The notes below the pieces were generated by a model. The model did not search any database and was not told where the DNA came from. It saw nothing but the letters and a program-made list of their open reading frames with translations. The position numbers were made by a program, and so were the translations under genes. Below, in pieces: positions 1 through 57,359 of a stretch of 62,190 nt of DNA. Location of the stretch: the NCBI GenBank assembly GCA_947460235.1, contig CANHGK010000016.1:1-62190 (forward strand), written 5' to 3'. Each line of letters opens with the position of its first letter. The first letter of the stretch is position 1. This DNA comes from Paenibacillaceae bacterium. GTDB lineage: Bacteria; Bacillota; Bacilli; Paenibacillales; CANHGK01.

Positions 1-1719
1 CACAAAGACTGGATGAACTGGATGCTTGATAGCGTTGGGTTTGACGGTTTCCGGATCGATGCCGTGAAGCATATTAAATTCGATGTGTTCACAAATAAAG
101 CTGGCGATGGGATGTTAGACAAAGTTCGCGCGGCACATTCAACGAAAAACATTTTCGCAGTAGGCGAGTACTGGAATCGTGACCTTGCTTCTTTACAAAA
201 TTATTTGAACTATTCCAACTGGAAAATGAGCTTGTTCGATGTACCATTGCATTTCAAATTTTACGGAATTGGTCAAGGTGGGTTTGATCTTCGCAATTTG
301 AACTCTGGTAACTTAGGTAACCTGAACTACGGTATGAACGCTGTTACCTTCGTTGATAACCATGATACGCAATATGGTCAAGCGCTCTTGTCTCCAGTTG
401 CAGACTGGGCAAAAGGGATGGGCTATGCGTATATCTTGAACCGTACTGAAGGCGTTCCGATGTTGTTCTATGCAGATATGTATGGTTATGACAATCGTCC
501 TGCAACGGCTTCGAATGGTACGTTGGGTGCGGCTAACGGAGTCAAAGGCAATATGATGGATACGATCAAGAAGTTGATGATTGCTCGTACCGCTGCATCT
601 TACGGTAAACAAAACGATTATTTTGATGATGGTGACGTCGTTGGGTTCTCTCGTGAAGGGGTAAGTGATATCGCGAACTCTGGGTCTGCTACAGTTCTTT
701 GTGATAACTACAACTGTGGCGCGGGTACATTAGGTAAATGGATGTTTGTAGGCACAGATGATGCGAAGGATACCTGGAAAAACGTGTTGGGTACAAAAAC
801 AGTTGTTATTCCAGATAATGGTTGGGCGTTCTTCCCAGCTGAAGGCAATGCTTCTGTATATATTGATACTCGTATTACTACAGCTATTCAAGCACCCGGC
901 TACGTGGCACCGAACTATGTTGCATCCGGTCCGGGAGTTGCAACAGCTGCTCCAACAGCAACACCTGCTCCAACGGCAACGCCGGTTCCAGCAGCTACAT
1001 CGACACCTGCTGCAGTTGCAACACCTGCTCCAGCAGCACCTGTAGTTGTAACGAACCAAACGGTAACGGTGTATTTCAAGAAATCAGGTTTTTCAAATGC
1101 AAACATTCACTTCCGTAATACAAAAGATTTGGTTTGGACGACATCACCAGGTGCGAAAATGGATCTTGATGCAGCAACTGGTTACTACAAAGCAACTGTT
1201 ACCATTCCAGATGCTTCACAACTTGAAGCTTGCTTCAACAATGGAACAACATGGGATAGTAATGGTGGATTGAACTACAAGTTTAACGGTAACTCAACAG
1301 TTAACGTAACGGATGGTAAGGTAGTTGCTGGTGTACCAGGATCATCATCAGCTTCATCAGCGGCGCCAGCGGCTGCAGTCGCTACACCAGTACCAGCAAC
1401 AACTGTAACAATCAGCTTTAGCTTAGGTAACATCAGTACGGCATTTGGTGATACAGTTGCAGTTGCTGGTGATTACAACGCTTGGGCAACTTCTGGTACT
1501 GCTGTTACAAAATTGTCGGTAACGGGTGCTTCCGTAGGTTCTTCCAACACATGGACCGGTAAAATTACCGTTCCTGCAAACAAAACGGTGAATTACAAAT
1601 TTATTAAAATCAATTCTGCAGGTGCTGTTACATGGGAATCAGGCTATACGGGTAATCGTACAATTACGGTATCTGCTACGAACCCTGCACTTGTCACCGC
1701 ATCGTGGAATGTGAAGTAA
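1..1719 (+). CDS. Alpha-amylase (GH13), C-terminal part, cut by window edge
   Basis: Secreted starch-degrading alpha-amylase whose N-terminus lies outside the window; the frame is open from base 1. The sequence starts just before the GH13 nucleophile motif FRIDAVKH (Asp codon at 58-60), followed by the acid/base motif GEYW and the transition-state motif FVDNHDTQ, the combination typical of liquefying bacterial amylases (GH13 subfamily 5 type). After the catalytic part comes an Ala/Thr/Pro linker (about 910-1050), a CBM25/26-like starch-binding module (about 1060-1340), a second short linker and a C-terminal CBM20-like module (about 1400-1716). It is a close paralogue of the complete amylase at 9926; protein identity is very high but many catalytic-domain codons differ synonymously. 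Family and role are firm; the CBM family assignments are by eye. Confidence 0.93.
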   Translation, partial: HKDWMNWMLDSVGFDGFRIDAVKHIKFDVFTNKAGDGMLDKVRAAHSTKNIFAVGEYWNRDLASLQNYLNYSNWKMSLFDVPLHFKFYGIGQGGFDLRNLNSGNLGNLNYGMNAVTFVDNHDTQYGQALLSPVADWAKGMGYAYILNRTEGVPMLFYADMYGYDNRPATASNGTLGAANGVKGNMMDTIKKLMIARTAASYGKQNDYFDDGDVVGFSREGVSDIANSGSATVLCDNYNCGAGTLGKWMFVGTDDAKDTWKNVLGTKTVVIPDNGWAFFPAEGNASVYIDTRITTAIQAPGYVAPNYVASGPGVATAAPTATPAPTATPVPAATSTPAAVATPAPAAPVVVTNQTVTVYFKKSGFSNANIHFRNTKDLVWTTSPGAKMDLDAATGYYKATVTIPDASQLEACFNNGTTWDSNGGLNYKFNGNSTVNVTDGKVVAGVPGSSSASSAAPAAAVATPVPATTVTISFSLGNISTAFGDTVAVAGDYNAWATSGTAVTKLSVTGASVGSSNTWTGKITVPANKTVNYKFIKINSAGAVTWESGYTGNRTITVSATNPALVTASWNVK

Positions 1720-1752
1720 TTAGTTTTCAAATCAAACAAAATTAGAAATAGT

Positions 1753-1833: not shown

Positions 1834-4800
1834 ATGAACGTTTCCACCAATGTATTATCTCGCGGGCTAAAATGGTTCTTTGCCATCTTCTTTCTCAGTC
1901 TTGCAGCGGTTGTTGTTGCGATGTTGGTCTCGTATCGATCGTCTTCAGGAATCGTACAAGAAAAAGTTGCCTCGACTTCACTAGAAGCGGTTACACAATC
2001 GACGAAACAAATGGATTATGTCCTAAATACGTGGGTTGGACTAACCAATCAAATTCAAATGAATCCTGTGCTTAAAAAGAATATTGAAGTGTATTTTGAT
2101 TCTTCCGTTTCTCGAAATGAATGGTCAAAAGCGAACGTGTCCTCAAGTGATACATTAAATAATTTCTTGGATGTTGACCGATCATCGGTGTATTCCATTG
2201 CATTAATACCTAGAGTAAATTTTACCGAGATGAGCACATCGGGTGATGAGTTTAATGATACAATTTTGCATTCAAGAAACGGTCCAACGATGTCGTTTAC
2301 GAATCAAAGTAAAGCAATCGTTCAATCCATTATTCATGCCGATGGAAGTCCAGTATGGATTGCGCCAATGCAAAAGGGGCCATTCGGTTATTCGTATATG
2401 CCAACATACACACTTGGACGTTTGCTCAAGAATTTAAAAGATCCAAGTCATGAAATGGTATTGCTGATTGAACTAAAAGCATCTGCCTTATTCCAACCAC
2501 TTGGTGAAGTATCACTTGGTGAACGGAGTGGAACATTCATTTCAGATTTCGGTGGGAACAAAATTGTTGATCGTACGATGAATAACTTTGGTGCACCAAT
2601 GCCGATGGCTGACCTGAATCGACTCAAACCAATCGGTCAAAGTTCAGGGGCATGGATTTTTAAGGCGGACGATGGTGAAGCATGGTTGGTACTTCGCGCG
2701 AAATCGAAAGTGAGTGGTTGGTTCGTAACTGGCTATTTACCACTCTCAGAATTGGTTGGGCCGATGGATCAGTTGTTGTCGTGGTCGATTCTTGCAGCGT
2801 GTGCGATGCTCCTTGTGTTTATCCTTGCGTTTATTCTAAGTAGTCGTTTCGCGAAATTGTTGAAACAAATGCAATTCGTAAATCATGAGATTCAAACACA
2901 AAATGATAAGTTAGCGCATATGGATAAATTGAAGAATCAAATCCTTGCAAATACGTCTCATGAACTTCGCACGCCGCTTAATGGGATTATTGGGTTGGCG
3001 GACTCGATGGTGGACGGTGCTACTGGTGAATTAAATGATGTAAGCAAATACAATTTAGGAATGATCATTTCAAGTGGACGTCGGCTATTGAATCTAGTCA
3101 ATGATATTCTTGATTTTTCTAAGCTGCGTTCACATGACATCGAAATGAATTTGCAACCACTTGATTTATATGAAGTAACTGATTTGGTGCTGAATATGTT
3201 TAGGCCGCTTGCCGAACAAAAGAAACTAGGTTTGAACAATGCTGTCTCAAGAAATCTAGCGTCTGTCCATGCTGACCCAAATCGCTTGCAACAAATTTTT
3301 TATAATTTAATTGGGAATGCAATTAAATTTACGCAACAAGGCGAAGTGACCATTTCTGCAAGGTCTTTGGGCGATCGAATGATCATTATGGTTCGGGACT
3401 CTGGCATTGGCATTCCGATGGAAGCTCAAGAGCGGATTTTTGAATCATTCGAGCAGGCAGATGGCGAAGCAACGCGAGTGAATGGTGGTACTGGACTTGG
3501 ACTAGCGGTAACGAAGACGTTGGTAGAATTACAAGGTGGTCAAATTTCGGTAACGAGTATGCCGGGTCAAGGATCGACATTTACATTTACAATTTCCATC
3601 AGCGAACTTCCAGCCGTTCCGCTAACGGAAGCGATGGGGCAGTACGTCCTGAATAAACCGCTTGTTGAGATCAATTCGTTAATCGCAGAACCATATGAAC
3701 AACTGTGTGATACTCAAAGTAAAAAATCTACGAGAATCTTAATTGTGGATGATGAGCCGATTAACTTGCAAGTATTGGAAAATCACTTGATGTTGCAACA
3801 GTATGAGGTGTTTCAAGCGAGTTCAGGACCTGAAGCGCTGGAGTGGTTAACGAATCATGCATTGCCGGATGTGATGGTGCTTGATGTGATGATGCCGGGG
3901 ATGACAGGATTTGATGTATGTCGTGAAATTCGTAAAACGCATCATATGAGCGAATTGCCAATTATTTTACTGACAGCCAAAAACCAAGTGCATGATTTAA
4001 TCACTGGCTTTTCCGTTGGTGCTAACGATTATTTGGTAAAACCTTTTACGAAACAAGAGTTTATCGCGCGCTTAAATATGCACATTCAGCTCGGGAAATG
4101 GAATGCTACGCTTGAGGCAGAAGTGCAAGAACGGACAATGGAAATTCAAAATTTACTGGATCACGTTGGACAAGGATTTTTGAGTTTTGATCGTGGATTA
4201 TTGATTGATGAACGATATAGTTCGGAGTGTAAGCGACTGTTTGGAAAAGAAATTGCCGGAATTAAAATTAGTGAGTTGTTGTTTGAACAAGATGAGTTAT
4301 TGCTCATTAGTTTTCCAGAAATTGTGCATGAATTGTTCGATGCAGTTGAACTCAACAAGCAGGAAATGATTCGGCAGTTGCTGCCTAATGAATTGAATCA
4401 TCGTGGGATTCCGTTGCAATTGGAATATAAGTTGATGAAAAACCCGTCAGGACAAGTCGTTCGCATGATGATGATGTTAACGGATGTTACGGAACAACGT
4501 AGTTTACAAGCGAAAATCGACCATGAACAATCCATTTTGAAAATGATTGTCAAGGCGGTAACGCATCGCGGTGAAGTGCATTCAGTCATTAATGCATATC
4601 GTGAATTTGTACAACAAGGAATCGAACAATGGATCCCGCAAAAAGGTGACGGCGTACGTGAATTACCGGTGCAATTATTCCGAATCATTCATACATTTAA
4701 GGGGAGTTTTGCACAACTTGGGTTTGTATTTGCTCCAAAGCGGCTTCATGAAATTGAATCAGAACTTGCTTCACTAATTCAACACGGCGCGACCGAAGAA

Positions 4801-5625
4801 AAAGATTGGATTCTTTGGATAAGTTCGATTGCTTGGATGAAATGCATCGGAAGTGATATTGAACGAATCTCTCATGTGCTCGGACACGCCTACTGGGTCG
4901 TAAGCGATGCGATCGAAATTCAACCAAGTCAATTGCGATCTATTGAACATGAATTAATGAATATGTTTGATATTACAAGGGATCACCCGATGATTGAGAA
5001 AATTCGTACGCTATATTATGTTGCGCTCCCGTCGATCATTCAATCGCATGAAGAAGTAACGATCGAATTGGCACATCGGATGAATAAATCGATCGACAGG
5101 TTTACGTTGGAAGGGGATTACGTTCTGGTTGATCCGGATCAGTTTAAGTCTTGGTCAATGTCGCTAGTACATGTGTTCCGTAATATCGTAGATCATGCCA
5201 TTGATACGTTCGACGATCGAATGATCCGCGGTAAAAATGGTTATGGAACAATCAAAGTTCGAACGGAAATTTTATCGGATTCCATTGAAGTGAGGATCGA
5301 AGATGACGGAAAAGGCTTGCCGGTTGCACTCATTCGGCGAAAACTCGTTGAAAAGGGAATTGCAGCAATTGATGTAGTAGAACGTATGTCGAAGGAACAA
5401 GTAATTGAACACATCTTCTTGCCATCATTTAGTACGAAAGATACGGTAAATGAAATATCCGGTAGAGGAATTGGCTTATGCGCGGTTCGATCGCTAACCG
5501 AAGAAATGGGCGGTACCGTTCATGCCGAAAGCGAACAAGGAAAATTCACACGGTTGATTTTTACATTCCCCAAAACATTATCGTTGACGCCATATCATAC
5601 GGATGCCCTTGTTGTGACAGTTTAG
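1834..5625 (+). CDS. Giant hybrid histidine kinase with CheA-like C-terminal module (copy 1)
   Basis: A 1263-aa membrane sensor kinase. In order: TM1 (about 14-34), a roughly 280-residue extracytoplasmic sensor (dCache-like by size), TM2 (about 314-334), HisKA with H376 in SHELRTPLNG, HATPase (N495, DSGIG from 522, GGTGLG from 551), and REC (acidic pair D639/D640, phospho-acceptor D684 in VLDVMMPG). Beyond the usual end of a hybrid kinase follow a PAS-like region (about 770-900), an Hpt-like helical region with H953 in HTFKG, and a CheA P4-like ATPase (N1117 in the HVFRN-VDHA box, EDDGKG at 1156-1161, SGRGIGL at about 1209). There is no CheW-like P5 domain. AAAGGAGGTG precedes the ATG. It lies between two amylase genes with a paralogue directly downstream. 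The signal sensed and the output partner are unknown. Domains are strong by motif; a starch-related role is inferred from position only. Confidence 0.93.
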   Translation: MNVSTNVLSRGLKWFFAIFFLSLAAVVVAMLVSYRSSSGIVQEKVASTSLEAVTQSTKQMDYVLNTWVGLTNQIQMNPVLKKNIEVYFDSSVSRNEWSKANVSSSDTLNNFLDVDRSSVYSIALIPRVNFTEMSTSGDEFNDTILHSRNGPTMSFTNQSKAIVQSIIHADGSPVWIAPMQKGPFGYSYMPTYTLGRLLKNLKDPSHEMVLLIELKASALFQPLGEVSLGERSGTFISDFGGNKIVDRTMNNFGAPMPMADLNRLKPIGQSSGAWIFKADDGEAWLVLRAKSKVSGWFVTGYLPLSELVGPMDQLLSWSILAACAMLLVFILAFILSSRFAKLLKQMQFVNHEIQTQNDKLAHMDKLKNQILANTSHELRTPLNGIIGLADSMVDGATGELNDVSKYNLGMIISSGRRLLNLVNDILDFSKLRSHDIEMNLQPLDLYEVTDLVLNMFRPLAEQKKLGLNNAVSRNLASVHADPNRLQQIFYNLIGNAIKFTQQGEVTISARSLGDRMIIMVRDSGIGIPMEAQERIFESFEQADGEATRVNGGTGLGLAVTKTLVELQGGQISVTSMPGQGSTFTFTISISELPAVPLTEAMGQYVLNKPLVEINSLIAEPYEQLCDTQSKKSTRILIVDDEPINLQVLENHLMLQQYEVFQASSGPEALEWLTNHALPDVMVLDVMMPGMTGFDVCREIRKTHHMSELPIILLTAKNQVHDLITGFSVGANDYLVKPFTKQEFIARLNMHIQLGKWNATLEAEVQERTMEIQNLLDHVGQGFLSFDRGLLIDERYSSECKRLFGKEIAGIKISELLFEQDELLLISFPEIVHELFDAVELNKQEMIRQLLPNELNHRGIPLQLEYKLMKNPSGQVVRMMMMLTDVTEQRSLQAKIDHEQSILKMIVKAVTHRGEVHSVINAYREFVQQGIEQWIPQKGDGVRELPVQLFRIIHTFKGSFAQLGFVFAPKRLHEIESELASLIQHGATEEKDWILWISSIAWMKCIGSDIERISHVLGHAYWVVSDAIEIQPSQLRSIEHELMNMFDITRDHPMIEKIRTLYYVALPSIIQSHEEVTIELAHRMNKSIDRFTLEGDYVLVDPDQFKSWSMSLVHVFRNIVDHAIDTFDDRMIRGKNGYGTIKVRTEILSDSIEVRIEDDGKGLPVALIRRKLVEKGIAAIDVVERMSKEQVIEHIFLPSFSTKDTVNEISGRGIGLCAVRSLTEEMGGTVHAESEQGKFTRLIFTFPKTLSLTPYHTDALVVTV

Positions 5626-5635
5626 GATCGCAACG

Positions 5636-5672
5636 AAAAAACCACTTCCTAAATTTAGAAGTGGTTTTTTCG
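5636..5672 (+). terminator. Rho-independent terminator after hybrid kinase 1
   Basis: Stem CCACTTC (5642-5648) with GAAGTGG (5658-5664), extended by flanking A and T runs and ending in T6. The A-rich left arm means it could also work on the other strand. Confidence 0.85.
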
Positions 5673-5760
5673 TTTTTAATAAGAGGGTTTATAATTGTGA
5701 TTGGCGAATATTTCTATTTACAATTCTTTTACTATTGTAACTAACGAGAGGTGATCTCAT

Positions 5761-8700
5761 TTGCAACAATCGCCAATTTCGCTTACGCGCGGGTTGCGCA
5801 TATTCTTTATTGTGTTTTTCTTTAGTTTAATCTCAGTTGTCTTCGTTACTTATTTGTCTTATCAATCATCTTCGGGATTAATTCAGAAAAAAGTCGCGAA
5901 TTCCTCGTTGGAAGCAATCACACAGACTGCAAGGCAATTGGATCTATATTTGCAGTCTTTTGTTGGAATGAGCACACAGATTCGCATGAATCCAAACGTG
6001 ATGGATCAAATCGATGTGTTGTTGACAAAGGAAATGTCATACAACGAACGTTCAAAAGTCTTGAAGCAAGTTAATGATATTTTAAATAGTTATCGAGATG
6101 CGGATCGCGAGAGTATTTATTCAATTGCTTTAATCCCTAAGGTGGATTTTGCGAATTATTCAGATGCAGGAACCTTGAGTGCGCCGACGATGGTTCGAAG
6201 CCTTCCCGGTCCTTCGATCAAATTCAATGATGAAAGTTCAAATCGCTTTCAGAAAATTATTAGTGCGGATGGAAAACCAGTATGGTTCCCTTCTACTGTA
6301 AAAGGATTTTTTGGTTTCTCATATATTCCTACATTGACCATGGGGAAATTAATGAAAAATTTGAAACATCCAGAACGAGAAGTTGTTTTGTTAATGGAAA
6401 TTAGTGAGAAACAATTGTGGAAAAATATAAGTCAATTGAAGTTGTCTGAGAACGGAAACGTTTTTATGTATGATGAAAATTCAAAATATGTTGCCATTGC
6501 TGATCCGACATTGTTAGGGCAGAATGCACCATTCGGGACGGAATTAGATCATTCAGCGGTGGGTAACTCCAATCAAATTGCAATTTATGAAGATGATGGC
6601 GGTTCTGAACTTGTTGTACGTGCCGTATCCGAAGTTAGTAATTGGATGGTGGTTGGTACAATTCCAGTTGCTGAAATGGTTGGTGAAATGCAAGGGATGT
6701 TGTATTACGCGGCAGGAGCCCTTGTTGCATTAGCGCTAGTGCTTGTTTTGGCAACGATTCTTAGTTCGCGATTTATGAATGTATATCGTCAATCTCAAAT
6801 GAGTATGCGCGAAATCGAACGTCAAGTCATTCAATTAAATGAGATGGCTCGATTGAAAGATGATTTTCTAGCCAATACGTCACATGAATTGAGAACGCCG
6901 TTGAATGGCATTATAGGGATCGCTGAATCGTTAAAAGACGGAATTGCTGGTAAATTAAGCGATGTCGTTCAATACAACTTAGGTATGGTCATTTCGAGTG
7001 GACGGCGATTATTAAATCTTGTAAATGATATTCTTGATTTCTCAAAAATGAAATCTCACAACGTTGAACTCCATCTTCAATCCATCTGTTTGCAAGAAAT
7101 TGCAGATTTGGTCATTATGATGTTCATTCCACTTGCGAATCAAAAGAATATTACGATTACGAATTCAATACCAAATAATCTTCCTCCGGTGTGGGCGGAT
7201 GCGAATCGCCTGCAACAAATTATGTATAATTTAATCGGAAATGCGCTTAAGTTTACACAATCAGGCTCAGTTATTCTAGGTGGGCGTAATATCGGTTCAT
7301 TAACGTTGTTAACTGTAAAGGATACGGGAATCGGGATTTCACCAGAAATGCATCAACGCATTTTTGAATCATTTGAACAAGGTGAAGGTGATGCTGCTCG
7401 TAAACAAGGTGGAACGGGACTTGGTCTTGCGGTTACCAAACAATTGGTGACGCTACACGGCGGGGAAATCAGTGTAGACAGTTTTCCAGGTCAAGGTTCT
7501 ACGTTTACGGTGACATTCCCAACGTCATTCGAACCTGCGATTTCGGTTGCAGAAGCGATGGGACAACAAACGGTAAACAAACAGTTACTTGATGTTAAGT
7601 CTTTTCTTGATGAACCAGTTCAACCAACCACGTCTGCCGATGAAATTGGGGAAGGTACCGGCTATCGTGTATTAATCGTGGATGATGAACCGATTAACTT
7701 GCAAGTATTAGAGAATCATTTGAAATTGAAAAACTATCAAGTATATCAAGCATCGAGTGGTATGGATGCACTTGCATGGCTAAACGCATATCCATTGCCG
7801 GATGTGGTCGTGTTGGATGTGATGATGCCAGAAATGACTGGGTTTGAAGTATGTAAAATTTTACGCAAAAAGTATAATTCAAATGAACTTCCGATTTTAT
7901 TATTAACCGCAAAAAATCAGGTGAATGATTTAATGCAAGGATTCGATGTTGGCGCGAATGATTATTTGGTAAAACCTTTTACGAAACAAGAACTATTGAA
8001 ACGCGTCAGGTTACACATTCAAATTAGTCGTTGGAATCGAACGTTGGAAGAACAAGTGTCTTCGCGTACGAAGGAAATCCGTAATTTGCTAGATGCGGCA
8101 GGGCAAGGTTTTTTGAGTGTAGGTGCAGACTTAAAAATAGATCCGCAATATAGTGTGGAATGTGATCGGATTTTTGGTGAACCAATTGTCGGAAAATTAA
8201 TAACAGATATTTTATTCCCAGCTGAACAAGAAGTTCGAAAATCAACGAATGACATTATGCAAGCCTTGTTTGCAGCAACCCAACCGTATAAACGAGATTT
8301 AATGTTTGGATTATTACCAATTCGATCTATGGTTGGAAACAATACGATTGATTTGGAATATCGGATGATTGAAGATTCCGATCACGTAATGCAAAAATTG
8401 ATGGTAATTATGACTGATGTTACAGAAAAATTAAAACTCGAGAACGATTTAGAAACAGAAAAGGCATATTTACGGATGATCGTCAAAACGGTTACCAATC
8501 GAACCGATGTGTTAGATTCTATCCATGAATTGCTCTCATTTATTAGTGATAGTAATTCGGAAAGTAAAAGTCAAACTACAGAAGATGTTCCATCATTAAC
8601 GAATCGGTTGATGCGTACTGTTCATACGTACAAAGGTCAATTCGCAATGTTTTCATTTGTAAACACGCCGCGTCATTTGCATGAACTTGAAGAACAATTA

Positions 8701-9534
8701 ACAATCTTATCTCAAAAGGAATCGATAACTGCAAAAAGTTTTTGGAAATCCATTTCATTTGAAGCGTTAAATCTGGCGCTAGAACAAGATTTAATGCAGA
8801 TTACGACGCAATTGGGAGCAGAGTATTTCTCGCAATCGAAAGTGATTTCAGTTGACCCAGAACGGTTACGAATGATTTGTACAAAAATGGAAAAGTTGTT
8901 AGACCGCGAAGATGCGAAAATTCTGATTCGTGAATTGAAAAGTGTTTTCTTTGAATTATTAAAACCGTGGGTGTTGCAATATGAATCTCAAACGATCGAT
9001 TTAGCATCACGAATCGACAAAAATGTATTGCCATTCATTATGAAAGGTCAAGATGTCATGCTTGATCGTAAGTTTTTCGATGGATGGTATAAATCTCTCG
9101 TTCATATTTTCAGAAATATGGTTGATCATGGGATTCAATTATTTGAAGAACGCATCACGGAAGGGAAGTCCGGTAGTGGTAAAATTACTTGTGATGTTAA
9201 CGTAAGTGGTCCTTGGGTCGAAATTAGTTTTGAGGATGATGGCGATGGGATTTCAGTAGATCGCTTGAAACGTAAATTGAGTTACTCTGGTGTAAAAACC
9301 GAACTTGAGTTGGAAATGATGAGCGATGAACAAATCATAGATTTAATATTTGAACCAAATGTTTCAACTGCTGAGAAAATAACAACAATATCGGGCAGGG
9401 GAATTGGTCTATCAGCTGTACGTGAAGTAACACAACAAATTGGCGGTACCGTTCATGTTGAAACAGAAAAAGGGGCTTACACCAAATTTGTTTTTCGATT
9501 CCCGGCGAACAATCCGTACATTCTATTGTTGTAA
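5761..9534 (+). CDS. Giant hybrid histidine kinase with CheA-like C-terminal module (copy 2)
   Basis: A 1257-aa paralogue of the preceding gene with the same unusual domain order: TM1 (about 13-33), extracytoplasmic sensor, TM2 (about 313-333), HisKA (H375 in SHELRTPLNG), HATPase, REC (phospho-acceptor D686 in VLDVMMPE), a PAS-like region, an Hpt-like region with H955 in HTYKG, and a CheA-type ATPase (N1119 in the HIFRN-VDHG box, EDDGDG, SGRGIGL). The sensor region diverges from copy 1 more than the catalytic blocks do, so the two may detect different cues. The start is TTG with GAGAGGTGAT upstream; no better start is seen. No terminator is visible between its stop and the amylase promoter. 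It sits immediately before the riboswitch-controlled amylase. Confidence 0.93.
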   Translation: MQQSPISLTRGLRIFFIVFFFSLISVVFVTYLSYQSSSGLIQKKVANSSLEAITQTARQLDLYLQSFVGMSTQIRMNPNVMDQIDVLLTKEMSYNERSKVLKQVNDILNSYRDADRESIYSIALIPKVDFANYSDAGTLSAPTMVRSLPGPSIKFNDESSNRFQKIISADGKPVWFPSTVKGFFGFSYIPTLTMGKLMKNLKHPEREVVLLMEISEKQLWKNISQLKLSENGNVFMYDENSKYVAIADPTLLGQNAPFGTELDHSAVGNSNQIAIYEDDGGSELVVRAVSEVSNWMVVGTIPVAEMVGEMQGMLYYAAGALVALALVLVLATILSSRFMNVYRQSQMSMREIERQVIQLNEMARLKDDFLANTSHELRTPLNGIIGIAESLKDGIAGKLSDVVQYNLGMVISSGRRLLNLVNDILDFSKMKSHNVELHLQSICLQEIADLVIMMFIPLANQKNITITNSIPNNLPPVWADANRLQQIMYNLIGNALKFTQSGSVILGGRNIGSLTLLTVKDTGIGISPEMHQRIFESFEQGEGDAARKQGGTGLGLAVTKQLVTLHGGEISVDSFPGQGSTFTVTFPTSFEPAISVAEAMGQQTVNKQLLDVKSFLDEPVQPTTSADEIGEGTGYRVLIVDDEPINLQVLENHLKLKNYQVYQASSGMDALAWLNAYPLPDVVVLDVMMPEMTGFEVCKILRKKYNSNELPILLLTAKNQVNDLMQGFDVGANDYLVKPFTKQELLKRVRLHIQISRWNRTLEEQVSSRTKEIRNLLDAAGQGFLSVGADLKIDPQYSVECDRIFGEPIVGKLITDILFPAEQEVRKSTNDIMQALFAATQPYKRDLMFGLLPIRSMVGNNTIDLEYRMIEDSDHVMQKLMVIMTDVTEKLKLENDLETEKAYLRMIVKTVTNRTDVLDSIHELLSFISDSNSESKSQTTEDVPSLTNRLMRTVHTYKGQFAMFSFVNTPRHLHELEEQLTILSQKESITAKSFWKSISFEALNLALEQDLMQITTQLGAEYFSQSKVISVDPERLRMICTKMEKLLDREDAKILIRELKSVFFELLKPWVLQYESQTIDLASRIDKNVLPFIMKGQDVMLDRKFFDGWYKSLVHIFRNMVDHGIQLFEERITEGKSGSGKITCDVNVSGPWVEISFEDDGDGISVDRLKRKLSYSGVKTELELEMMSDEQIIDLIFEPNVSTAEKITTISGRGIGLSAVREVTQQIGGTVHVETEKGAYTKFVFRFPANNPYILLL

Positions 9535-9925: not shown

Positions 9926-12481
9926 ATGACAATCACCATCCAAAGAAAGACAAGCATTATGTTAGTGATCGCGTTAATCGCAAGCATGATTCCGATGTTC
10001 GCATTGAGCATCCAGCCAGTAGCAAAAGCAGGTACACCGCTTAACTTAACCTCATCACAATATTTCGAGTGGTATGTACCTGATTATCACAATGTTAAAA
10101 ATGCTGATGGCACTGAAGGGTTTTGGAATCGAGTTCGTAATAATGCAAGTGATTTGAAAAACATGGGTATTTCAACTTTGTGGTTACCGCCGGCGTATAA
10201 AGGGATGTCAAATCAAGATGTTGGTTATGGCGTATATGACATGTATGACTTAGGTCAATACGATGTTAATGGTACAGGTGGAGTTGATGGGATCCGTACG
10301 AAATACGGTACGCGTTCCGAATTAGATTCAATGATTTCAACATTGCACTCAAATGGTATTTCGGTACTTGCTGACTCTGTTATGAATCATAAAATTTTGG
10401 GTTCTTGGTCTGGCGACCCAGCTCTAGAATATGTTCAATTAGATAAACGTTGTAACTTATGGGGCGATCGTAACATCTGTGATGCTGGTGGTTCAATGAA
10501 CACATTCACACTTGCAAAATTCCCTGCTCGTATTTCTAAAGGTGCACCTGCTGGAGCTCCTGCTAGCTGGTCATGGACGTTTGATAAAACATGGTTCAAT
10601 GGTTCTGACTGGAGCTGTGATAGCGCTGGTAAAAACTGTGGTAACCCTAAAATGAATAACGGCGGAACTGCTGCTGGTAACTGGGGCGGTAAAGGCTGGA
10701 ACTGGGAAATGGATACGGAATTTGGTAACTTCGACTACTTGATGGGTGCTAACGTAGACTTTAACCTTGCATGGGTTAATACGTACCATGTTGACTGGCA
10801 CAACTGGATGCTTGATAGCGTTGGATTCGATGGTTTCCGTATTGATGCAGTTAAACACATCAAATTTGATGCGATTACAAGCCCTACTGGAACTGGTATT
10901 ATCGATAAAGTCCGCGCTGCTCACCCAGGTAAAAACATCTTTGCAGTAGGTGAATACTGGAACCGTGACCTTGGTTCATTAAACAACTACTTGAATAAAA
11001 CAGGTTGGAAAATTAGCTTGTTCGATGTTCCATTACACTTCAAATTCTTCGGTATTGGTCAAGGTGGATTCGATCTTCGTAACTTGAACAGCGGTAACTT
11101 GGCAAATATGAACTATGGTATGAATGCTGTAACGTTTGTTGATAATCATGATACGCAATATGGTCAAATGCTTTTATCTCCAGTTGCTGACTGGGCAAAA
11201 TCGATGGGTTATGCATATATCTTGACTCGTCAAGAAGGTTTACCTTCCATTTTCTATGCTGACCTTTATGGTTATGACTACCGTCCAGCTGGTGGTTCCA
11301 ATGGTACATTGGGTGCTGCTGGTGGCGTAAAAGGTAATTTGTATGACACAATCAAGAAAATCATGGTTGCTCGTACTGCAGCTGCGTACGGTAAACAAAA
11401 TGATTATTTCGATGATGGCGATGTTGTTGGTTTCTCCCGTGAAGGTGTAAGCGATATTGCAAACTCAGGTTCTGCTACAGTTATTTGTGATAATTACAAC
11501 TGTGGTGCAGGTACACTTGGTAAATGGATGTATATGGGAACTGCTAACATCGGAAAAACATTTAAAAACGTATTAGGTTCTAAAACAGTAGTGGTTCCTG
11601 CAAGTGGTTGGGCGTTCTTCCCTGCTGAAGGAAATGCTTCAGTATATATCAATAGTGCAATCAATGCTGCTATTCCTGCTCCTGGCTATGTAGCACCAGG
11701 CGCTGTTGCAACAGCTGCTCCAACTGCAACACCTGCACCAACTGCAACACCAGTTCCTGCTCCAGTAGTCGTACAAGCTGTAGCAACACCTGCTCCTGTA
11801 ACAGCAGTAGCAATTACAAATCAAACAGTAACTGTGTACTATAAAAAATCAGGTTTTTCAAATGCAAACATTCACTTCCGTAATACAAAAGATTTGGTTT
11901 GGACGACTGCACCAGGTGCGAAAATGGATCTTGATGCAGCAACTGGTTACTACAAAGCAACTGTTACCATTCCAGATGCATCGCAACTTGAAGCTTGCTT
12001 CAACAATGGATCAACATGGGATAGCAATGGTGGTTTGAACTACAAATTTAACGGTAACTCCACAGTTAACGTAACAGATGGTAAAATTGTAGCAGGTGTT
12101 CCTGCATCATCTGCGGCAGTTGCAGCAGCTCCGGTTGCAGCAGTGGCTACACCAGCTCCAGCTGCAACAGTAACGATCAGCTTTAGTTTAGGTAATATTA
12201 GTACAGCATTTGGTGATACTGTTGCCGTAACTGGTGACTACAATGCTTGGGCTACTTCAGGTACTGCTGTAACGAAATTGTCTGTAACAGGTGCATCTGT
12301 TGGTGTAGCGAACACATGGACTGGTAAAATCACAGTTCCAGCAAACAAAGTTGTAAACTACAAATTTATCAAAATCTCTTCCACAGGTGCAATTACATGG
12401 GAATCAATTAGTGGAAACCGTACAATTACGGTAGCTGCTACGAACCCAGCACTTATCACTGCAAGTTGGAACGTGAAGTAA
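9926..12481 (+). CDS. Secreted alpha-amylase (GH13) with two starch-binding modules
   Basis: An 851-aa extracellular endo-acting amylase. A signal peptide ends near residue 35 (hydrophobic core followed by AKA). The GH13 catalytic region runs to about 590, with nucleophile D307 (FRIDAVKH), acid/base E343 (GEYW) and D409 (FVDNHDTQ). An Ala/Thr/Pro linker follows (about 592-630), then a CBM25/26-like module (about 632-725), a second Ala/Pro-rich linker and a C-terminal CBM20-like module (about 750-851). GAGGAGGA sits 8 bases before the ATG. It is controlled by a promoter, a cre box and a c-di-GMP riboswitch directly upstream. It is paralogous to the truncated amylase at the left edge. Substrate class is confident; the exact product profile cannot be read from sequence. 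Confidence 0.96.
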   Translation: MTITIQRKTSIMLVIALIASMIPMFALSIQPVAKAGTPLNLTSSQYFEWYVPDYHNVKNADGTEGFWNRVRNNASDLKNMGISTLWLPPAYKGMSNQDVGYGVYDMYDLGQYDVNGTGGVDGIRTKYGTRSELDSMISTLHSNGISVLADSVMNHKILGSWSGDPALEYVQLDKRCNLWGDRNICDAGGSMNTFTLAKFPARISKGAPAGAPASWSWTFDKTWFNGSDWSCDSAGKNCGNPKMNNGGTAAGNWGGKGWNWEMDTEFGNFDYLMGANVDFNLAWVNTYHVDWHNWMLDSVGFDGFRIDAVKHIKFDAITSPTGTGIIDKVRAAHPGKNIFAVGEYWNRDLGSLNNYLNKTGWKISLFDVPLHFKFFGIGQGGFDLRNLNSGNLANMNYGMNAVTFVDNHDTQYGQMLLSPVADWAKSMGYAYILTRQEGLPSIFYADLYGYDYRPAGGSNGTLGAAGGVKGNLYDTIKKIMVARTAAAYGKQNDYFDDGDVVGFSREGVSDIANSGSATVICDNYNCGAGTLGKWMYMGTANIGKTFKNVLGSKTVVVPASGWAFFPAEGNASVYINSAINAAIPAPGYVAPGAVATAAPTATPAPTATPVPAPVVVQAVATPAPVTAVAITNQTVTVYYKKSGFSNANIHFRNTKDLVWTTAPGAKMDLDAATGYYKATVTIPDASQLEACFNNGSTWDSNGGLNYKFNGNSTVNVTDGKIVAGVPASSAAVAAAPVAAVATPAPAATVTISFSLGNISTAFGDTVAVTGDYNAWATSGTAVTKLSVTGASVGVANTWTGKITVPANKVVNYKFIKISSTGAITWESISGNRTITVAATNPALITASWNVK

Positions 12482-12527
12482 TTTGATTCAAATGCAAGTC
12501 AAGCACGACCCCAAATTCAAATCCTTC

Positions 12528-41413: not shown

Positions 41414-42073
41414 ATGATTTGTCGTGTTTTAATTGTTGATGACCACCTACATGCCCTTCAGGCAATACGATTATTACTTCAAGACGAACCTCGATTTATA
41501 ATTGCTGGGAGTGCACGAAGCGGCGAAGAAGCGCTTCAAATGGTTACTGAACAAAGCTACGATCTCGTATTAATGGACATTCAAATGACTGGTTTGAATG
41601 GGTTACAAACGACACGCCTCATGAAACGATCGTTTCCTGCGTTAAAAATTATCGTCGTAAGTGTATCGGACGACTCACAAGATTTATATGCAGCCCTTCA
41701 GGCTGGTGCGCAAGGTTATTTAATCAAAAACATTGAAACGAGCAGTTGGTTGGGATATCTTCGGGCAATCGCTTTTGAAGAAGGTGAAATTCCAGAAGAC
41801 GTTAGTAGACAAATGTTACAAACGTTTCAATCGGCGATCCGTTCTGAATCCGTAGAATGGGAAAAAACGCTTGATTTTACACAACGTGAAATGGATATTT
41901 TAGAAGAAGTAGGTAGAGGTTTGACCAATCGCGACATCTCAACTCAATTATTTATTTCTGAACATACCGTCAAAAATCATCTCAAAAGTATGATGCAAAA
42001 AGCAAATGTGGACAATCGTGTAAAATTAGCTGCGTTAGCGCTCAAAATGACTCGAAAGAGTCATGGCAATTGA
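41414..42073 (+). CDS. NarL/LuxR-type response regulator
   Basis: A 219-aa DNA-binding regulator: receiver domain (acidic pair VDDH, phospho-acceptor D55 in LMDIQMTG, Lys in GYLIKN) and a C-terminal LuxR-type helix-turn-helix (FTQREMDILEEVGRGLTNRDIS; HTVKNHLKSMMQKA). It is the cognate partner of the kinase directly upstream (AAGGAAG precedes the ATG). Likely targets are the adjacent DUF4198 and CopCD genes; that is inference from position. Confidence 0.94.
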   Translation: MICRVLIVDDHLHALQAIRLLLQDEPRFIIAGSARSGEEALQMVTEQSYDLVLMDIQMTGLNGLQTTRLMKRSFPALKIIVVSVSDDSQDLYAALQAGAQGYLIKNIETSSWLGYLRAIAFEEGEIPEDVSRQMLQTFQSAIRSESVEWEKTLDFTQREMDILEEVGRGLTNRDISTQLFISEHTVKNHLKSMMQKANVDNRVKLAALALKMTRKSHGN

Positions 42074-54998: not shown

Positions 54999-57359
54999 AT
55001 GCAACAAAATGCACGAAAAATAAATCCAGTAATTTTGTTTGCTGTTTTTTTTGGTGTGTTAGCATTGATTATTACGGTAAGTATCTATTCCAGTACGGTA
55101 TCACGAAATACAATTCGAGAACAGGCCGCAGAGTCAACCGAACGAACGGTAAGTCAAGTTCGTGATAAATTGGATTCACAATTGGCTCGGATCGAAAGTC
55201 TGCTTAAACAAGTGCATTTTGATCCAACATTGCGGGATATTCTCAAAGTTTATCCTAATCCGCCTGAAAATGAGGTAGATCGACTGCAATTATATGATCA
55301 AGCATCAAAAATTCTTGGTGGTTATTCGAGCACGATGAAATACATTGATGGTATTCATATTTTTAGTGATAAATTTTTGAAAAAAGTAAGCACCGATGCT
55401 ATTAAATTGCAAAATGCCGGTCCAGAATCTCGGTTAAGTATTATTTTTGATGAAACAAATATCGGTTGGTTACAAAAAATGAATGCTGATGAACGTACGC
55501 CAATTTGGGTTCCTGTGACGAAAAATGGTTTTTTGCGCAGTGCAAATTTAAGTGCAATTAAAGATTATGCAGGGCCAACGTTTTCAATTGGCAAACGCTA
55601 TGCGAACATTAAACGCCAAGATGGACAAGGTTTTTTTATTGTAATTAATTTAAATGTGAAATTTTTGCGTGAATTATTCCAAAACGTTGATTTGGGTTCG
55701 GGTTCAAAAGTATATGTAACGGATGCGAATGGAAAGATTATCTATGCAAAACAAGAAGAGTTAATCGAAACGCAAATTCCATTGGACCAAAGTCTAATAC
55801 CTTTGCAGGGAAGCAAAATTGTAACATTGGATGGTCAAGAACAATTATTGTTACATGAAACATCGGTTTCGTCTGGTTGGCATGTCGTTGGTACATTACC
55901 AACAGGACAATTGTTTAGTGATGTGACCCGGACGTCCAATTATATGTATCTTGTTCTTGGCTTGCTCGTAGTGGTTATGGCGATCACGTATTTATTAATC
56001 CGTCGTTTTATTATCGTGCAGGATCGCCTACAACTTCAATCTGCTCAATTATTACGAAAAAATGATGAACTCGAACAAATGGATCGATTGAAAGATGATT
56101 TTCTGGCGAACACATCACATGAATTGCGTACACCAATCAACGGAATTATCGGGATTACCGAATCGCTCGTTGATGAATTTGAAAATAGTAATGAGTCTAT
56201 AAAAAAAGACTTAAATATGATCATCAATAGCGGTCGTCGTTTATCCAATTTGGTCAATGATATATTGGATTTTTCCAAACTACGCAATAGTAAATTGGAT
56301 TTGCATCTTGGAATTGTTGATTTTCCTAGTGCACTCGACATGACACTCGGTTTGTTAAAACCGTTGATTGGGAAAAAACGCTTGGAAATTATTAATGAAC
56401 TTGAATTTATGAAACCGGCAGAGTTAGAGAAATTAAAGATGGTTGCGGATGAAAATCGAATTCAACAAATTTTGCATAATATTATTTCAAATGCGATTAA
56501 ATTTACCGAAGTTGGCCGAGTTGAAATCAATGCGTATACGATCGGCACAATGGTCGTGTTCCAAGTGTCGGACACGGGGATTGGTATTCCTGAAGATAAA
56601 TTGGATACAATCTTTAATTCATTTGAACAAGTAGACGGTTCTACTGCACGAAAATATGGTGGTACCGGATTGGGATTGTCAGTCACGAAACAATTGGTTG
56701 AACTACATTTTGGTTCCATTAAGGCCGAATCACAGCATGGTTCTTGGACTCGGATTACTGTACAAATTCCGATGGCTGATCCTGCATCTGTGCCGAGTGA
56801 AAATAATGTTCAGTTGTCTCGTGCGATGGTTGAACTTGATGAAGTGCATGAACCTGATGTGATCAACCAAAGCAATGAAGGGATGAAGTCACACGGGAAA
56901 GTACTCGTTGTTGATGATGAACCGATAAATTTGCAAGTCATTTTGAATCATTTACGCAAAATGGACTATGAAGTAAAAACGGCAGACAATGGTATCGATG
57001 CGAAAGAAATGATTCGCAATGGCTATCGACCTGATTTGATTTTGCTTGACGTCATGATGCCAAAGTTATCTGGTTTTGATTTGGTGCGGTTATTAAGACG
57101 TGAATTTCCACAAGAGGAATTACCAATTTTGCTATTAACGGCAAAAAATACACCCACAGACGTCGTTACTGGATTCGAATCGGGTGCAAATGATTATTTG
57201 GTAAAACCATTTACGAAAATGGAATTGATCGCACGTGTAGATTTACACATGAATATGGCAAAAAAACATCGTCAACTGATGTTAATGTCAAAAAATGTGA
57301 TGAGGTTGCTTGATGAAAACAAAATAAAATATCAATCCAACGTGGTTGGAGATGAATAA
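54999..57359 (+). CDS. Hybrid histidine kinase without CheA module (third paralogue)
   Basis: A 786-aa membrane kinase related to the two giant kinases at 1834 and 5761: TM1 (about 9-29), extracytoplasmic sensor, TM2 (about 310-330), HisKA (H374 in SHELRTPINGIIG), HATPase (NIISNAIKFTE, DTGIGIP, GGTGLGLSV) and REC (DDEPINLQV, phospho-acceptor D684 in LLDVMMPK). The protein ends about 35 residues after the REC domain, so the PAS-like, Hpt and CheA-type parts are absent. No response regulator or Hpt gene is beside it. GAGGGCGGTG precedes the ATG. Confidence 0.93.
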   Translation: MQQNARKINPVILFAVFFGVLALIITVSIYSSTVSRNTIREQAAESTERTVSQVRDKLDSQLARIESLLKQVHFDPTLRDILKVYPNPPENEVDRLQLYDQASKILGGYSSTMKYIDGIHIFSDKFLKKVSTDAIKLQNAGPESRLSIIFDETNIGWLQKMNADERTPIWVPVTKNGFLRSANLSAIKDYAGPTFSIGKRYANIKRQDGQGFFIVINLNVKFLRELFQNVDLGSGSKVYVTDANGKIIYAKQEELIETQIPLDQSLIPLQGSKIVTLDGQEQLLLHETSVSSGWHVVGTLPTGQLFSDVTRTSNYMYLVLGLLVVVMAITYLLIRRFIIVQDRLQLQSAQLLRKNDELEQMDRLKDDFLANTSHELRTPINGIIGITESLVDEFENSNESIKKDLNMIINSGRRLSNLVNDILDFSKLRNSKLDLHLGIVDFPSALDMTLGLLKPLIGKKRLEIINELEFMKPAELEKLKMVADENRIQQILHNIISNAIKFTEVGRVEINAYTIGTMVVFQVSDTGIGIPEDKLDTIFNSFEQVDGSTARKYGGTGLGLSVTKQLVELHFGSIKAESQHGSWTRITVQIPMADPASVPSENNVQLSRAMVELDEVHEPDVINQSNEGMKSHGKVLVVDDEPINLQVILNHLRKMDYEVKTADNGIDAKEMIRNGYRPDLILLDVMMPKLSGFDLVRLLRREFPQEELPILLLTAKNTPTDVVTGFESGANDYLVKPFTKMELIARVDLHMNMAKKHRQLMLMSKNVMRLLDENKIKYQSNVVGDE

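Follow-up and report, generated by a model that had tools for sequence, protein, structure and literature searches.

The CheW-like P5 domain was present in 100% of the 13,673 CheAs of one survey, in which it ranks as a core domain (PMC10782961). Control of one kinase by another has been reported in Leptospira, where LvrA switches LvrB, a kinase under receiver control (PMC13269768), and in Rhodospirillum centenum, where CheA3 phosphorylates the receiver of CheS3, and CheS3 phosphorylates CheY3 (PMC3868531).

Two tandem genes of a Paenibacillaceae bacterium encode proteins that fall between the usual definitions, the CheW domain being the mark of CheA and a single catalytic core that of hybrid kinases. 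The window analysed is the whole stretch of 62,190 nucleotides, positions 1 to 62,190 of the forward strand of contig CANHGK010000016.1, from a 2.7-Mb genome (assembly GCA_947460235.1). Each chain runs from a hybrid kinase into an Hpt region and a second, CheA-type ATPase. Taken as a whole, the sequence data are best explained, we believe, by a kinase cascade of two stages within a single chain, a reading that we hold to be probable. In the open-access papers that we searched, neither CheA-type kinases that bear sensors and have no P5 nor the two-engine fusion are described.

Domain organisation of the tandem kinases

The order TM-sensor-TM-HisKA-HATPase-REC-PAS-like-Hpt-CheA P4 proposed for both proteins by the first-pass annotation is borne out by Pfam, by a family profile and by comparison with the PDB, the PAS label being the weaker part (Table 1). 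Pfam places HisKA of copy 1 at residues 367-433 (1e-17), REC at 635-747 (1.5e-30), and HATPase_c at 481-588 as well as over a second, C-terminal stretch (1.7e-50 overall); copy 2 returns the same domain set, its sensor giving a weak dCache_1 match (8e-4), and NCBIfam groups the C-terminus with a CheA model. HisKA, HATPase_c and REC are thus present in one chain with their key residues intact, and the first half of each protein is an ordinary hybrid kinase.

For the Hpt region the Pfam match of copy 1 (944-978, 0.0024) lies below the gathering score, and that of copy 2 is likewise sub-threshold (946-990, 9e-4). Family data make it firm, since Pfam Hpt matches 23 of 28 module members, and a profile built from 28 intact modules (alignment A1), compared with solved structures in the PDB, matches CheA P1 (1tqg, 6e-8) in addition to CheA P3-P4 (4xiv, 1.3e-61). 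The motif is of the P1 type, HTxKG, reading HTFKG and HTYKG at residues 953 and 955. Structure prediction bore out the ATPase and left the rest less certain: the AlphaFold model is reliable over P4 only (pLDDT ~80), where the top Foldseek matches are CheA P4 domains (TMt 0.81-0.87), and its confidence over the PAS and Hpt regions is low. Neither copy shows a CheW/P5 domain in Pfam at E<=1 and both proteins end after P4, as had been claimed. Two kinase engines, two phospho-acceptor histidines and one aspartate per chain were likewise found as described, at exactly the residues named for copy 1 (H376, D684 and H953) and at H375, D686 and H955 of copy 2.

The segment between receiver and Hpt we assign to a PAS-like domain with moderate confidence. 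PAS_4 matches it in four of 28 module members (best 0.07) and in one homolog at 0.002; its low-confidence model has the strand and helix order of a PAS domain, with structural neighbours that are mostly PAS and none significant; and a profile of the region gave no significant match among solved structures.

Table 1. Features of the two kinase genes, in window coordinates
Feature	Position	Strand	Evidence and remarks
Copy 1, two-engine hybrid kinase (TM-sensor-TM, HisKA, HATPase_c, REC, PAS-like, Hpt, CheA-type P3/P4)	1834..5625	+	ORF, 1263 aa; Pfam, PDB profile
Copy 1 HisKA, H376	2932..3132	+	Pfam 1e-17
Copy 1 HATPase_c, first engine	3274..3597	+	Pfam
Copy 1 receiver REC, D684	3736..4074	+	Pfam 1.5e-30
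Copy 1 signalling helix, REC alpha5 to PAS-like domain	4075..4164	+	fixed 43 aa from REC-P to PAS-QG
Copy 1 PAS-like domain, ~residues 778-887, moderate confidence	4165..4494	+	weak profile matches, low-confidence model
Copy 1 Hpt / CheA P1-like, H953	4588..4842	+	PDB profile CheA P1 6e-8; Pfam
Copy 1 CheA P3-like helices and P4 ATPase; N box ~1113-1121, G1 1157, G2 1209	4852..5574	+	PDB profile 4xiv 1.3e-61; Foldseek
Copy 2, two-engine hybrid kinase, tandem paralog of copy 1	5761..9534	+	ORF, 1257 aa; TTG start as listed
Copy 2 HisKA, H375	6856..7053	+	Pfam
Copy 2 HATPase_c, first engine	7198..7524	+	Pfam
Copy 2 REC, D686	7669..8010	+	Pfam
Copy 2 PAS-like domain	8098..8427	+	weak profile matches, low-confidence model
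Copy 2 Hpt, H955	8518..8775	+	Pfam; PDB profile
Copy 2 CheA P3-like/P4 ATPase, G2 at 1211	8785..9507	+	box conservation; PDB profile

The kinase pair is flanked by amylase-like genes (window 7-1735 and 10793-12497) that are 79% identical to one another in DNA, the contig start falling inside the first. Directly 3' of the pair, a c-di-GMP-I-GGC riboswitch (RF03167, 9727-9827 on the + strand, 59.6 bits against a gathering score of 59) lies in the leader of the amylase-like gene at 9926-12481. Further along the window, between genes for arginyl-tRNA synthetase and an ABC-F-like protein, lies a third hybrid kinase (54999-57359, +) of HisKA-HATPase_c-REC type, with a weak dCache match and no second engine.

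A mobile Hpt-P4 module

The C-terminal block, about residues 755-1250, is a mobile module and recurs 25 times in the source genome, 21 times intact, behind dCache-HAMP, HAMP, TPR-GAF, REC alone, sensor-REC or HisKA-HATPase_c-REC. Sixteen of the intact modules belong to proteins without HisKA, and 14 of these are also without REC; full two-engine fusions comprise five intact proteins and two with a dead second engine. The complete fusion is also found in at least four other genomes with differing N-termini, two of them HisKA_7TM, which rules out uniqueness to the source genome. The fused state changes six times or more on the module tree, which means that the fusion has arisen or been lost repeatedly. 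At a locus of a fifth genome (L205, G074) an in-frame TAG that falls between Hpt and P4 divides the fusion into two ORFs of 738 and 257 aa, which are either a broken gene or a natural two-part version.

Occurrence across the phylum is sporadic: full-length modules were found in at least 26 of the 298 genomes sampled from the order, the source genome included, and in at least 11 of 397 other genomes of a phylum-wide sample, both counts being lower bounds since only a few candidates were scored per genome. One module is carried by a Caballeronia plasmid. Another family of the class has 1981-aa ORFs (the ~2000-residue type, loci L295-L300) whose C-terminal module has HQFKG in place of HTxKG, and viral contigs yielded one distant relative. 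When the whole protein was used to search genome contigs, mostly HisKA-REC relatives and no further fusion were returned. A chance match or annotation artefact is ruled out by the E-values and by the 64 homologous modules from the source and other genomes.

Sixty of these 64 modules keep the Hpt histidine, the N-box asparagine and the G2 glycines. The other four, all from the source genome, are without the Hpt histidine, and their N and G2 boxes are gone too; Fisher's test of this joint loss gives 1.6e-6, a naive value that overstates independence, the tree requiring at least two independent losses, although in both of these Hpt and ATPase went together. Two of the four (L006 and L007) have an intact first engine and receiver. 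The joint conservation, the joint loss and the survival of first kinase and receiver in two of the four dead copies together support the view that Hpt and P4 would work as a single functional unit. At locus L178 (contig 13, 3511-11788), two fusions in which the second engine is dead but the first engine and receiver are intact stand on either side of a receiver-only protein of 192 aa that is extended at its N-terminus.

Should the second engine be vestigial in the window copies as well, only the first kinase and its receiver would signal; the four paralogs with clearly dead second engines speak for this, as does the identity between the two window copies, which is 34% over Hpt and 38% over P3-P4 against 74% over HisKA and 69% over REC. 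We nevertheless consider it very improbable, since despite such wide divergence both copies keep the Hpt histidine, the N-box asparagine and histidine, the G1 aspartate and the G2 box SGRGIGL. The N-box glycine is alanine in copy 1 (VDHA), as it is in one other intact homolog.

Probable receiver input and CheY output

The receiver lies N-terminal to the second kinase and is joined to it by a helix of constrained length: from the proline of the REC KP motif to the QG motif of the PAS-like domain there are exactly 43 residues in all 16 receiver-containing proteins examined, from six genomes. The HATPase-REC linker varies between 86 and 109. The position held by the receiver is otherwise taken, in module kinases, by HAMP or GAF. 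This invariant spacing, together with the exchange of REC, HAMP and GAF at one position, makes it reasonably likely that the receiver is the input switch of the second engine; most likely it is not merely the tail of the first kinase. Fixed spacing could partly reflect shared ancestry, and the receiver could instead give its phosphoryl group to Hpt or serve as a sink. Some operons contain the unfused counterpart of this arrangement, a separate hybrid kinase preceding a module kinase.

Phosphoryl transfer to Hpt would make the protein a classical multistep phosphorelay that runs from HisKA through REC and Hpt to an external regulator, with P4 as a second source of phosphate and the two inputs meeting at H953. 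The order HisKA-HATPase-REC-Hpt is indeed that of BarA/ArcB-type hybrids, and the intact fusions keep all three phospho-acceptor residues. We judge this unlikely, though it deserves more weight than the other alternatives: the sixteen intact modules in proteins without HisKA, fourteen of them without REC, argue that Hpt needs no receiver; a relay would tolerate a flexible tether where the REC-PAS spacing is invariant; and retention of Hpt tracks the P4 boxes rather than the first engine, as in L006 and L007.

The output of the module is indicated by its neighbours in other genomes: a gene for a stand-alone response regulator lies within 1.5 kb of 35 of 40 modules, on the same strand in 35 of 35 cases and often separated by only 6-50 bases. 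Among the other five, two sit at the edge of a contig, and for two a regulator is found about 2.4 kb away. These regulators are single-domain CheYs, or CheY-like receivers with a C-terminal domain that gave one marginal STAS match. Of the 40 kinases, 18 carry a fused CheX and eight more have CheX encoded by a neighbouring gene, and kinase-CheX-CheY operons are seen. In the sample of the order, all 19 genomes with a best regulator-family match below 1e-55 also have the module, about eight of the 19 having contributed rows to the regulator alignment, so that independent support comes from the remaining genomes. We regard it as highly probable, on this synteny, that the module kinase pairs with a CheY-type regulator. 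Given the same-strand regulator genes at 35 of 40 modules, the second engine most likely phosphorylates its own Hpt, which would then feed an external CheY. The first-pass annotation had offered phosphorylation of the internal Hpt and supply of a separate regulator as alternatives; the two appear to form a single route, from P4 through Hpt to an external CheY.

Among individual loci, kinase and a C-terminal CheX phosphatase domain share one chain at L165 (contig 22, 5783-8122 and 8134-11328) and L166 (contig 15, 5347-7695). L248 encodes a fusion of CheX with a class III nucleotide cyclase domain (3553-5133, -), directly after a CheY-STAS-like regulator and a module kinase, a possible second-messenger output.

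No response-regulator gene stands beside either window copy, and in the source genome one intact module only has such a gene within 1.5 kb, on the opposite strand; the assignment of partners there rests for this reason on sequence family. In the proposed genome search for co-occurring orphan receivers, the best matches to the partner family are two stand-alone CheYs, C20:30356-30733 (220 bits), which adjoins a sensor-REC-module kinase on contig 20, and C29:20750-21112 (208 bits), which lies among purine-biosynthesis-like genes on contig 29. The CheY of the flagellar/chemotaxis cluster scores 165 bits. These two CheYs are the likely targets in the source genome, common to about 21 intact module kinases. 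Two stand-alone CheX genes are also present, and three CheX domains are fused to modules. The LuxR-type regulator at window 41414-42073 is a poor match to the regulator family and was rejected as a partner.

Alternatively, phosphate from the second engine might drain into the receiver (H953 to D684), which would then serve as a sink, with the first kinase only tuning it. Tethered receivers acting in this way are documented, having been reported for CheAY2 and R. centenum CheA3 (PMC3868531). Most module kinases, however, contain no receiver yet are accompanied by a separately encoded CheY, and CheX is often fused to them or encoded alongside; the receiver, moreover, stands N-terminally, where sensory input domains otherwise stand; we consider a sink very improbable, slightly more so than a vestigial second engine.

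In the cascade that we favour, a periplasmic, probably dCache-type sensor would control the HisKA/HATPase_c kinase (H376/H375), as family knowledge suggests, and this kinase, after autophosphorylation, would phosphorylate the attached receiver (D684/D686). The receiver would switch the second engine through the fixed-length helix into the PAS-like domain, as spacing and domain swapping suggest. Joint conservation and joint loss point to the CheW-free P4 then phosphorylating its own Hpt (H953/H955), an autophosphorylation predicted, like that of H376, from sequence; and synteny in other genomes, which is strong, to transfer from Hpt to a separate CheY-type regulator reset by CheX-family phosphatases. 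The proteins would in effect act like CheA with CheY and CheX, built-in sensors replacing chemoreceptors and CheW. More tentatively, and with slightly less than even confidence, we envisage a "chemosensory" network free of CheW and chemoreceptors, composed of modular CheA-type kinases with interchangeable sensors, some with a built-in HisKA and receiver stage, about 21 of them converging on two CheX-reset CheYs.

Should the cascade model be correct, ordinary sensor domains or a receiver can directly drive a CheA-type core, and no arrays are needed. As a compact natural system, the fusion would lend itself to the study of kinase-kinase control; operon partners in other genomes make its output directly testable, and the many kinases facing few CheYs raise a question of signal integration.

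Comparison with described systems

The tripartite hybrids BarA, ArcB, TorS and EvgS share with the window proteins a HisKA-HATPase_c-REC core and a downstream Hpt; unlike them, to our knowledge, they have no second ATPase after Hpt. CheA is resembled in the P1-type Hpt, the P3-like helices, the P4 with its DHG N box and SGRGxGL G2 box, and the probable partners CheY and CheX, but the window proteins have neither P5 nor P2 and contain, in the one chain, a sensor of their own and a complete second kinase. The second engine would work like CheA and is not one by the definition of the survey (PMC10782961), because the CheW-like P5 was looked for and is absent. Each protein is best described as a CheA-type kinase without CheW, probably under receiver control, joined in one chain to the hybrid kinase that precedes it. 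The LvrA-LvrB-LvrC system of Leptospira has the succession proposed here, a receiver phosphorylated by an upstream kinase turning on, by way of a helix, a second kinase that feeds a separate regulator (PMC13269768), but its kinases are separate and the second is of HisKA type, whereas those of the window are fused and the second is of CheA type. R. centenum CheA3-CheS3-CheY3 likewise puts two kinases in series, the second phosphorylating a single-domain CheY (PMC3868531); there the two kinase types come in the opposite order and as separate proteins, and the system has a chemotaxis-type gene cluster.
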